Positions 25,214-50,645 of a DNA stretch of 64,000 nt are shown piece by piece (the stretch's first letter is position 1; each line of letters opens with the position of its first letter). The notes beneath the pieces are model-generated. The model ran no database searches. It was not told the DNA's origin and saw only the letters and a list, made by a program, of their open reading frames with translations. Origin of the DNA: Eunapius fragilis (Eukaryota; Porifera; Demospongiae; Spongillida; Spongillidae); assembly GCA_963681505.1 (NCBI GenBank), contig OY811980.1, positions 3,336,553-3,400,552 of the forward strand, given 5' to 3'. The translations under genes were made by a program, and so were the position numbers.

Positions 25214-28200
25214 ATGGAACCTAATACGTAAGATCTTTGCGCCATGCTTGAGAGGGAACGATGTAAAATTTATTTAATTGTCTGCTGTCATCAGAAGCCA
25301 GGAAGAAGAGTGGAAACGAATCCAAAACCAGACTTTCCGGCGATGGTGCAATGCTCGTCTTGCGGTCCAGAAAGTGACGATCGAAGACCTTGGCACCGAC
25401 CTGTGCGATGGAGTCAAGCTCATAGTCCTGCTCGAGGTATTGTCTCAGAAGCTCTTGGGCAAGTTCAACAAGAAGCCGCGAATGCACGCCCAGCGCATGG
25501 AGAATGTGGAAATAGCGCTGCAGTTTATAACCCAGAAGGAAAAGATACGCCTTGTCAACATCGGTAGGTTGCATACAATACAGCATCACTATCGCGTCAG
25601 CTATGCCTATACACTGAGGATGATCGCGCTGCTGTTCTAATGCTCTATTTGTGCACAGGGAGTGGTGATATCGTTGGAGGGAATCTGAAGTTGATACTGG
25701 GGCTCATTTGGACACTGATTCTGCACTATCAGATCAGTAAAGGCCTTTCGAATGCGGCGCCGACGGATTCTGAATCCGGAGCTTCGGCAGGCAATAAAGC
25801 GACAGGCTCACCAAAGGAAAACCTTCTGAATTACCTTGAGGTACCTCCATAATGATGTATACTTCCTATTACTGTATTATATATATATATATATATTTCA
25901 CGTATAGCAAACGATACAACTGTCGGGAAAGAAGATCCGTAACGTTACAACTGACTGGAACGATGGCATCTTAATAGCCACTCTGGTGGATTCAACTGCT
26001 CGTGGGTTGTGCCCTGAGTGTGATGAGATGGTCCCTGAGAACGCCCTCCAGAATGCAACAGTTGCCATGGCACTGGCTGAAAATTGGCTTGGCGTACCCC
26101 AGGTAACGTGTCAGTGAATAACGTAGTGCATACCGCGCGCGGTTTAGCAAACGCATGAGAGCGGCTTCGGAATGTGCCCCGTGGGAATAGACTACAACAT
26201 GAATACTCTTTGCATTGAAACATCCAGCCGTCTTATTTTGATTCCACAAGCGGTTAGTAACCGTAAAACACAAAATTTAATTTCATTCCAAAGCACGCGT
26301 TTTTATTGATGTGCATAGTCCACACACAAAAAACAAACACACACACACACACACACACACACACACACACACACACACACACACACACACACACACACAC
26401 ACACACACACACACACACACACACACACAAACAAACACACACACACAAACAAACAAACACACACACACACACACACACACACACACAGCAACAGCATATG
26501 TACATGCAGGGGCCGCAACAGTAGGGAGAGATTTTTCTGGGACTAGATTTATGCAGCTTTGTGTGTGTGTGTGTGTGTGTGTGTGTGTGTGTGTGTGTGT
26601 GTGTGTGTGTGTGTGTGTGTGTGTGTGTGTGTGTGTGTGTGTGTGTGTGTGTGTGTGTGTGTGTGTGTGTGTGTGTGTGTGTGTGTGTGTGTGTGTGTGT
26701 GTGTGTGTGTGTGTGCGTGCGCGCACGCGCACTGGCCGCAACAGGATCGGCTGACAAGTCACAAAATGGGAAATGATGACGCTATATGGCTCTGCACACC
26801 AATAATCATAACTAGAGTATTATGGACTCAGTCAGATCGAAGCAGCTGACTTGCCAACCATCCAGTTATACACTAGAAGGATATCAGCTGGGGTTATTTA
26901 TATTTTTGCGGATTATCTAGTTTATATAAAACAAAACAAGTACTACTATACTAAAATAAAGGGCTATATATAAATTCATGCATTAAAAACGAGAGGCATA
27001 ACCAAACAGAGGGAAATGAACAATACTGTGTACTCATCATTGGAAGGGATCAAGTATTGTATACCATCACACTTGGCTTGGTTTGTTTTCTTGTATTCAT
27101 CTTGCTAATTACATTTTGAATTCTTTGGTGGTTAAAGTAATAGTGACTTCTTGGCAGCTCACAAATGGACAATTCTCCATGTTGTTGATGTTCCTAGCTG
27201 TTACTAATTGGATTTCCATACATTAAGCAGCAGTCATGAACACCAGTCGCTTGTTTAAACCATGATGAAATGCTTTATTGTCTCCATTCATGAGCTGCCA
27301 AAAGTCTCCGCTCCTGTGTGTCGGACTATTTGACTAGAATAATTATAGTTGTGGACAGCATTCACATGTGAGTAATTTGAATATTTATTTCTCTAATAAA
27401 TTTGTTCCCAAACATGATTCCACGAAAATGTTTCACTGCTGGTGTTGGCAACTATATCGCTGATACATGTTGATTAGTTCGCATAGAACAAATAATAAAA
27501 ATCCGATCCAAAAATTGAGTTTGTTAGCTGACGGTCTGGGTACGAGAGACCAGTACCCACTTATTACTACCAGTTTGCCAATCAGATCCGTAGGCTGGGG
27601 GAGGGGGGGGGGGGGGGGGGGGGGGGGGCGTGGGCAGAATTCGGTGGGCCCCCCGCTCGTTTCGAAATAATTTAGTGAGCACGCGGTAGCACACGAGACT
27701 AGCCCACAATAATTTCATATCGCCATAGCAATACGTCACCATTGTACAAAGTATGGCTTTTAACTGCGTGCGGGGCTTTTGTTTGAGCCATAGAGAGGAA
27801 ATACGACCCGGTGAACACGATGGACTGAACAGTGTATTTAACAGATTTCATTCTCCCCTTCACAATGAGTATTCACATCTGAAATGGCTTTACCTTAGCT
27901 TAAGCAGAGATTATCTCTGGCTTAAGACACACGCCCAGATATACTCGCTTGCTCAAGATAAAAACTTAAAGCTGGTCTCTGTAACTTGGAATGGCCTGAA
28001 ATGTAATCAGCGTGAGTCCTCTCTCGTGTAGAACAACTTTATCTCGACTGTACATGATATCATACTACATTTGGGTGTGTGGGTACAACTGACTAGGCGC
28101 TAGCGGGTGAAAAAAAAAAAGAAGAAATTCGTTATGTTCTTGATATGTTGTGATATACTATTTGCAACGCTTCTGGTTCTGAAGCTGGAGGAGCTTGCAG

Positions 28201-49200: not shown

Positions 49201-50645
49201 GAGCATCAGTTGGAAGGAAAGCTGAAGTAGCTATTGACACAACAGAAGCAGGCACTGCTCCAGTTGCAGCCACGGTCACTACACCAACTGGAAAGGACTT
49301 TGCTCTGGAACTTGTACCTGAAAAGACACTAGGACACTTCCATGGAGAATACGTTCCACTAGAGGCAGGCCACCACAAGCTTCACGTCCTGTTTGACGGA
49401 GAACCCATTCCAAAGTCACCATTTGATGTAACCATTCCTAATGAAGAAGAATGCAGTGTGGTGGAGGAGCCTGACCTTGAGTCAACTCCTCTAGGATTTA
49501 CAGAGTTACCTCAACTGCTGATTGATGGTCCTGTGGTGGGTGATGGTGGAAGTTTGGAAGCTTGGGTAGAAGCACCCAATGGCGAACAATTGCAGTGCAC
49601 CGTATCGAGACATGGTGATAAGCACAAAGTAACCTTTTTCCCCCGCACTGTTGGAAAGCACTTCGTTCACATCGCGAGGGACAAAGTTCCAGCTGAATGC
49701 AGTCCTTTTGATGTGAATGTTAATTTGAATCAAGTCTTCAGCTTTGATGGTCCTAGAGTGGCCCAACTAGATGTTGGACGATCTGTACAGATCGAGGTTG
49801 ACAGTGATGTAGGCGGAATGGGTGATTTAGCTGTAAATGTTTATGGTCCAGGGGATTGTATTGTTAAATCGAATCGGAATTCCAGCAGTACCTTTACTAT
49901 TGAACTTACTCCAATGGCAAGAGGTACGTATCTTGTTTATGCTACATGTAACGGGAAAGTTGTTAGCTGTTCGGATTATGTATTGGTGGTGGGAATAATG
50001 CTATATGACCAATCGATAGCACACAGCACTATTATTGATGGAACTGAGATTGTTGCTTGCACTGACATTGCTGGATGTTCTACTGAAGGATCTGATGGTG
50101 GCAGTGGATGTGAGTTTGTTGTATCTGGTCCTGGTGTGGATGGAGGCACATTAATGGGAGAAGTGGCATTTGTCATTCAAGCACTGAATATTATTGAAGG
50201 CAATGTGAACGTTGATATACATGGACCATGCGATTTGGATGTGAGAAGGATAGGTGATGGCCGCAGTTCAATGCATGTTCATTACCTTCCTACTGTTGCC
50301 GGCGTTTATGTAATAAGTATTACTTATGCAGGGCGCCATATTAAGGGTAGCCCCTACCAAGTTTTCTGGGCACGTCCTCCTCCTGATGCGTCTAAGTGCT
50401 CTGTGTCAGGCATTGAGAAGCAAGGAAAATTTCATATTGATTGTAGTAAAGGAGGTGGATGTGGTTATCTAGAAGTTGCTGTCTTTGGGGCATATGTTCC
50501 TGCTGAAGATATAGCAGTGAAGCACAATGGAGACTACACTTTTGAAATTACCTACAAGATTTCGCAGCCTGGTAAAACTACCATCAGTGTCAAATGGCAT
50601 GGTGTGCACCTCAGTGGAAGTCCATTCACAGTGTTTACTGTATAA
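25214..50645 (+). CDS. FLN: Filamin 2, giant filamin (CH1-CH2 + about 75 Ig-filamin repeats, 7446 aa)
   Basis: This is an actin-binding, rod-forming filamin of titin-like size. Exons are 25214-25227 (14 nt), 25295-25563, 25659-25840, 25908-26102 and 28965-50645. All have GT-AG borders and the total is 22,341 nt in one frame. The start is chosen because ATGGAACCTAATAC followed by GTAAGA mirrors the tiny first exons of the two paralogues. Residues ~8-155 hold CH1 ([25 protein letters not shown]) and ~156-255 hold CH2 ([31 protein letters not shown]). By my count there are 10 diverged Ig repeats, then 60 in the array at residues 1264-6951, then 5 more, of which the last two have the normal filamin C-terminal form ([25 protein letters not shown]). 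So head and dimerising tail are both intact and only the rod is expanded. Human filamins have 24 repeats. No in-frame stop interrupts the 21.7 kb exon. Copy number in the array depends on a correct assembly. Confidence 0.92.
26337..26487. repeat. (CA)n tract, left arm of a microsatellite hairpin
   Basis: About 150 bp of CA repeats, interrupted by AAACAAAC blocks, in filamin 2 intron 4. It is complementary to the GT tract 75 bp downstream. Confidence 0.95.
26561..26716. repeat. (GT)n tract, right arm of a microsatellite hairpin
   Basis: About 155 bp of uninterrupted GT repeats in filamin 2 intron 4, ending in GCGTGCGCGC. It pairs with the upstream CA tract. Confidence 0.95.
28965..50645 (+). 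other. Exon 5 of filamin 2: a single 21,681-bp coding exon
   Basis: The acceptor TTTTTACTACAG precedes GTACTCCATCCTGAG, which aligns with the same exon start in filamin 1 (13451) and filamin 3 (62074). From here to TAA at 50643-50645 the frame is open without an intron. It encodes the end of CH2 and the whole rod. This is about the size of the largest coding exons known in human genes (TTN and MUC16, from general knowledge). Confidence 0.9.
32094..49157 (+). repeat. 12 tandem copies of a 1,422-bp coding unit (five Ig-filamin repeats each)
   Basis: Units begin at 32094 and every 1,422 bp after that (33516, 34938, 36360, 37782, 39204, 40626, 42048, 43470, 44892, 46314, 47736). A partial thirteenth runs from 49158 to about 49590, where identity stops in the second domain. 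The period holds exactly in all 12 copies, so there are no indels. Each unit is 474 aa made of five different filamin Ig repeats: type 1 (1-95, starts [10 protein letters not shown]), type 2 (96-190, [10 protein letters not shown]), type 3 (191-280, [10 protein letters not shown]), type 4 (281-384, [10 protein letters not shown]) and type 5 (385-474, [10 protein letters not shown]). Copies differ by only a handful of substitutions, many of them shared between units. Diverged single copies of types 3-5 precede the array at about 31,220-32,093 and may be the ancestral flank. Confidence 0.96.

Follow-up and report, generated by a model that had tools for sequence, protein, structure and literature searches.

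A giant two-CH filamin locus with a tandem array of five-Ig units in the sponge Eunapius fragilis

How long can the rod of a filamin become, and by what route does it lengthen? Human filamins A, B and C consist of a two-CH actin-binding head, a rod of filamin immunoglobulin (Ig) repeats, 24 in number, and a last repeat, R24; passages of PMC7714767 describe repeat number as almost constant in vertebrates and substantially different among invertebrates. The question is raised by a stretch of 64,000 nucleotides from the freshwater sponge Eunapius fragilis (GenBank assembly GCA_963681505.1, contig OY811980.1, positions 3,336,553 to 3,400,552 of the forward strand), hereafter the window, which lies on chromosome 10. 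An earlier note, made from the letters of this stretch alone, had proposed that it encodes a filamin of about 7,446 amino acids (aa), some 0.8 MDa, with about 75 Ig repeats.

The window locus is a giant two-CH filamin. Spliced together, its five exons give a single frame of 7,446 aa and 786.8 kDa with GT/AG borders at all four introns, which bears out the proposed size, and a locally built hidden Markov model (HMM) of the repeat counts 75 filamin repeats in the rod; Pfam likewise detects filamin repeats in the pieces of rod scanned. A second giant, reached by a separate amplification and new here, is encoded on chromosome 8. We think it probable that the window gene is a genuine sponge filamin whose rod was lengthened by in-frame amplification of a five-Ig cassette, and that its product is a dimerising actin cross-linker about three times the length of human filamin. 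Here, we describe the evidence for this reading, the explanations that compete with it, and what filamins of such different lengths may mean for actin networks in this animal.

Gene model and domain composition

The terminal open frame of the window gene (28914-50645) is free of stops, and its 7,243 codons, with 75 homologous repeats, rule out a chance open frame. The exon borders (Table 1) are also reflected in a paralogue at 54.4-63.8 kb, whose alignment blocks start and stop near the borders of exons 2 to 5; in that same comparison the introns of the window gene gave no alignments to the paralogue. Reading the paralogue by hand also yields a first exon of 14 nucleotides (nt) and an in-frame acceptor. 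Two long CA/TG runs are found within intron 4 of the giant gene.

Both ends of the protein, which the earlier note had called intact, were recovered as such. Pfam detects two CH stretches in the spliced head, the best solved relatives of which are the actin-binding domains of filamins A and B (E 2e-66). The repeat HMM was built from 19 seed repeats of the window, several of them from the giant gene itself, and Pfam serves as the independent check. Its coverage of the rod comprised three pieces, both ends of exon 5 and one array unit, and Filamin (PF00630) was found in each: nine stretches fall within the initial 1,000 aa of exon 5, nine within its final 843 aa and five within one 474-aa unit. 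The tail repeat resembles human R24 by sequence. Among solved structures, its best single stretches are 2eed of filamin B, which we take to be R24, and 3cnk, the dimerisation domain of filamin A; R24 of filamin C (1v05) follows closely. The structure titles of 3cnk and 1v05 name dimerisation domains. The top row by total score, summed across three stretches, was filamin A Ig19-21. On the basis of this homology the head is predicted to bind F-actin and the last repeat to join two chains.

The tandem array and its acidic linker

The tandem array is 17,992 bp long, which corresponds to 80.5% of the length of the protein, and its frame is without any stop. The 12 full units compared are 98.2-99.8% identical in pairs (mean 98.9%), and all 12 are distinct, with 65 variable sites, 21 of them common to two or more units. 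Identity between units drops with their separation (Spearman -0.53; none of 500 shuffles as low), as is expected of tandem duplication or unequal exchange, and the longest exact repeat within the array is 1,026 bp. The array also produces, as a by-product, 12 antisense frames of 213 aa at intervals of 1,422 bp.

By sequence, the best solved match of one window unit is filamin A Ig19-21. In fold comparisons a six-repeat model of the unit had filamin A Ig3-5 and Ig19-21 as its top matches; the highest-ranked chain of a single repeat among its best 50 matches was filamin A repeat 17 with GPIb-alpha, at a template modelling (TM) score of 0.89 and 41% identity. Filamin repeats 17, 19 and 21 are assigned to the ligand-binding class A in a passage of PMC7714767. 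Sequence and fold matches together suggest that each window unit brings in one repeat similar to those of class A in human filamin.

The units of both giants, in the window and on chromosome 8, contain an acidic linker. In the window protein its opening residues, IPNEEECSV, occur as 13 exact matches with a period of 474 aa, from residue 1356 to residue 7044, and of its 33 residues nine are acidic and none is basic. The six-repeat model resolves the domains, although the arrangement between them is unreliable (predicted TM score, pTM, 0.38). The linker is modelled at low confidence, and on this reading it may be a disordered hinge.

A second giant and the filamin family of the genome

The second giant filamin frame encodes 7,711 aa, again a protein of roughly 0.8 MDa, and, at the stricter cut-off of the repeat HMM, also 75 repeats; a run at maximum sensitivity gave 98 pieces, 23 of which are fragments with negative scores. 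Its array has a period of 309 aa, with three Ig repeats and about 21 copies; 18 of the 20 units compared are distinct, and the longest exact repeat is 1,868 bp. Identity again falls with unit distance, and nearest relatives are often two units apart. Pooled over 20 units, the ratio of nonsynonymous to synonymous rates (dN/dS) is 0.096, indicating strong purifying selection: 29 of 110 substitutions are nonsynonymous, where the 1,000 simulations that supplied the neutral expectation for each array average 73.2 (standard deviation (sd) 4.7; lowest 57). In the window unit, the counterparts of these array repeats are repeats 12 to 14, with identities of about 44 to 51%. The two amplifications are nevertheless separate, because the unit differs (five repeats versus three) and each is homogenised within its own gene; a tendency to expand a related cassette may be older than both.

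The chromosome 8 giant has a 19-repeat neighbour with which it shares 95.6% identity in repeat 1 and 99.0% in the tail repeat, whereas the cassette repeats of the pair are only about 35 to 53% identical. At the start of the terminal exon the pair is 94.9% identical in DNA. The best ungapped self-lag identity is 20% in the neighbour versus 84% in the giant. Thus the spacer of this pair turns over, whereas its first repeat and tail stay alike.

These genes belong to a larger family. The genome searched comprises 218.9 Mb in 24 contigs, and 200 kb of other filamin regions were scanned besides the window; the whole-genome CH and filamin searches give lower bounds. At least eight loci have two CH matches: the window holds three, chromosome 8 four and chromosome 15 one. 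The earlier note noticed neither these paralogues, the second giant among them, nor the recurring acidic linker. Counted in the terminal frames only, with other exons left out, the window genes have 16, 75 and 5 repeats, those on chromosome 8 have 19, 75, 7 and at least 10 (for the last, the stretch scanned covers 867 of 1,022 aa), and that on chromosome 15 has 7. In the six-frame search, one of the 16 CH matches (chromosome 8, 9349457) crosses a TAG. When the whole genome was searched with the tail repeat, 14 matches resulted, the best eight of which (E 1.2e-23 or lower) are the ends of eight different frames at two-CH loci; the remaining six (E 4e-5 or weaker) are partial and fall in other frames or other repeats. 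The tail repeat of the window gene is 51 to 78% identical to those of the seven other two-CH paralogues and, in a separate comparison, 54 to 72% identical to five of them. The coordinates of the 16-repeat paralogue G1 (Table 1) are those of separate frames and matches, its exons not being joined.

Filamins of other kinds are also present. Loci with three CH matches, like jitterbug, exist elsewhere in the genome; the window gene is not of this type, since two CH domains rather than three are found at the locus and in the spliced head. On chromosome 4 (13000406-13045280) two jitterbug-like filamins occupy single frames of 4,272 and 5,290 aa with 41 and 52 repeats, and show weak self-similarity at about 1,141-1,146 aa (18 and 22%, ungapped). 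Chromosome 20 holds 38 of the listed filamin matches between 3.43 and 5.91 Mb; of these, 28 fall in frames of 727-765 aa, each with a single repeat listed. The one frame examined contains a filamin repeat plus NHL repeats, and by sequence this is probably a filamin-NHL expansion.

Elsewhere in the window, a frame at 10887-11363 (+) matches RNA polymerase Rpb1 domain 5 and is probably, on this match, the 3' end of a gene for a large polymerase subunit directly upstream of the filamin cluster. Long microsatellites and minisatellites occur at 24020-25097, 26321-26719 and 25-10420. On chromosome 9 (9623639-9676564) cox1-like stretches with stops at two places are, by their sequence, probably nuclear copies of mitochondrial DNA. 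The mitochondrial genome itself is 28,504 bp long, has a cox1 that is open if TGA is read as tryptophan, and contains an atp9 gene and GC-rich spacers. TGA as tryptophan, a mitochondrial atp9 and GC-rich spacers are demosponge features.

Table 1. Positions of the giant filamins, their parts and the window paralogues (window coordinates unless a chromosome is named)
Feature	Position	Strand	Basis or remark
Exon 1 (provisional)	25214..25227	+	14 nt, start ATG; frame kept; comparable 14-nt exon in paralogue, 54352-54365
Exon 2, CH1	25295..25563	+	Spliced frame, CH match, homologous block in the 54.4-63.8 kb paralogue
Exon 3, end of CH1 and linker	25659..25840	+	Spliced frame; first 80 bases conserved in paralogue
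Exon 4, CH2	25908..26102	+	Spliced frame, CH match, homology to paralogue
Exon 5, end of actin-binding head, 75 filamin Ig repeats and stop	28965..50645	+	Single 21.7-kb exon
Tandem array, unit 1,422 bp (474 aa, five Ig)	31627..49618	+	About 12.7 periods; 12 full units compared, from 32088
Acidic linker, example, 33 residues	33792..33890	+	Starts IPNEEECSV
Repeat 75, C-terminal R24-like repeat	50379..50642	+	Sequence comparison
Paralogue G1, 16 Ig	11777..18184	+	CH1 frame 11777-12253, CH2 match 12898-13086, terminal frame 13394-18184
Paralogue G3, 5 Ig, same kind of tail	54352..63780	+	CH matches, alignment, hand reading
Exons of paralogue G3	near 54352-54365 (provisional), 54431-54699, 60346-60530, 60647-60841, 62074-63780	+	Ends read by hand
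Second giant filamin frame, 7,711 aa, 75 repeats	chromosome 8, 3674113-3697245	minus	Repeat HMM, stricter cut-off

Competing explanations and the meaning of a giant filamin

In the mechanism that we propose, the rod of the window gene would have been extended by in-frame tandem amplification of the five-Ig cassette, with a head that binds F-actin at one end and a last repeat that joins two chains at the other, both by homology. Each unit would contribute one class-A-like repeat plus one acidic linker acting as a probable hinge, and because every unit adds both, the product would be a jointed, multivalent spacer rod. Paralogues with a like head and tail and from 5 to 75 repeats would then allow the mesh size and compliance of actin networks to be set by the length of the spacer. 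We infer that the giant filamin is expressed, binds actin, dimerises and bends at its hinges, with mechanics to match.

A number of observations weigh against parts of this reading. The window array is under modest constraint (dN/dS 0.39): of its 65 substitutions 37 are nonsynonymous, where neutrality predicts a mean of 45.6 (sd 3.8; minimum 30), and the absence of stops among 65 substitutions has a probability of 0.083 by chance. The six-repeat model, with its pTM of 0.38, was made from an alignment of eight near-identical sequences; 24 of the 33 linker residues lie in segments with a predicted local distance difference test (pLDDT) score under 50, which is weak evidence of disorder because so shallow an alignment lies behind it. 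Hinges are in any case no novelty, since human filamins already have two, according to a passage of PMC7216277. In a fold search with the tail repeat, 3cnk and 1v05 ranked 43rd and 33rd (target-normalised TM scores 0.78 and 0.79), below other filamin repeats, so that the search is compatible with R24 but not discriminating. The heads of the chromosome 8 pair are less alike than their tails, with 72.6% DNA identity around CH1 and 89.7% at CH2. Finally, the unit count itself may be off, because the 18-kb array exceeds the mean high-fidelity (HiFi) read.

The explanation that survives best beside ours concerns the cause of the length rather than its existence: the number of units may drift in the manner of a minisatellite through unequal exchange, so that the length has no selected function even if the protein is made. 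The high identity of units and its decay with distance in both arrays would follow from such a process, as would nearest relatives that lie two units apart on chromosome 8 and paralogue terminal frames with anything from 5 to 75 repeats. The cassettes of the two arrays are related, so a common readiness to expand may account for both at once. On the other hand, both arrays have arrived at about equal repeat number, although two cases are at most suggestive, and the chromosome 8 units are under strong constraint, although on their sequence rather than their number. We regard drift as a distinct possibility, while not favouring it.

It is also conceivable, but unlikely, that the locus is real but seldom or never yields the giant protein, with internal promoters, polyadenylation or splicing within the exon producing filamins of ordinary size. 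The frame is open through all units of both giants, and the strong purifying selection on the pooled chromosome 8 units would be unexpected if most of them were as a rule skipped or cut off.

The arrays might, lastly, owe their length to the assembly, a shorter gene having been over-expanded or its units mis-joined. The assembly was made with HiCanu from HiFi reads at about 118x, together with Hi-C, as stated in passages of PMC12616128, and the run table of that source yields, by hand calculation, means of roughly 6 to 13 kb for the HiFi reads of each run, so that reads would usually fail to span the 17,992 bp of the window array; the same source describes libraries prepared for ultra-low input (ULI) sequencing and a curation that corrected 212 misjoins or missing joins. 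Such an artefact is nonetheless very improbable, given that mean reads are several times longer than the longest exact repeat of the window array and far exceed that of chromosome 8 as well, that no two window units are the same, that identity decays with distance as in real tandem arrays, and that a second gene has been expanded likewise with another unit.

The reading of a genuine, amplified filamin places the window gene within a known family; the novelty lies in how large it is, in two amplifications that arose separately and in a linker carried by every unit. The earlier note knew of no described filamin of this size, and none near 75 repeats was found among the papers listed in searches of the openly licensed PMC literature, which omits most subscription papers. 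The gene differs from human filamins in having a near-identical five-Ig array over about 80% of its length, the whole rod in one exon, and a linker in each unit where the human proteins have two hinges. C. elegans FLN-2 and Drosophila jitterbug are likewise invertebrate filamins, but with three CH domains rather than two; passages of PMC3143143 give FLN-2 3,747 aa and at least 23 repeats, and FLN-1 20 repeats. Dictyostelium filamin (gelation factor), as described in an excerpt, also joins an actin-binding domain to rod repeats, but has six of them compared with 75; the title of 1qfh refers to dimerisation of its rod domains 5 and 6. Titin and the other giant Ig proteins of muscle are long chains of Ig folds and possible springs. 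The window gene is similar in idea, but its pieces show filamin and CH domains, and no I-set or FN3 domains were found at E 0.001 in the pieces scanned with Pfam, in which the array was represented by one unit plus the array ends; on that basis a relationship to titin is rejected.

The window filamin may act as a titin-scale cross-linker or spring, as the earlier note suggested. A passage of PMC7216277 gives the length of human filamin as about 80 nm for 24 repeats; scaled from this value, the arm of a 75-repeat filamin would be an estimated 250 nm or so. The two-CH genes are best read as a length-graded filamin set, in which the spacer grows between head and tail types that are retained. As a sponge, E. 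fragilis is an animal that contracts and is not known to have muscle. A bolder and rather doubtful reading is that this sponge has twice built a titin-scale jointed actin tether from filamin cassettes, that conserved tails pair short with giant chains within the graded set of 5 to 75 repeats, and that the number of spacers sets the mesh and stiffness of contractile tissue; its tail-pairing part is weakened because only the chromosome 8 pair has near-identical tails (99%). That one genome carries two arrays built from different units suggests a process that recurs rather than a chance event at a single locus, and the same kinds of head and tail, joined by 5, 16, 19 or 75 repeats, represent a natural experiment on rod length in actin networks.

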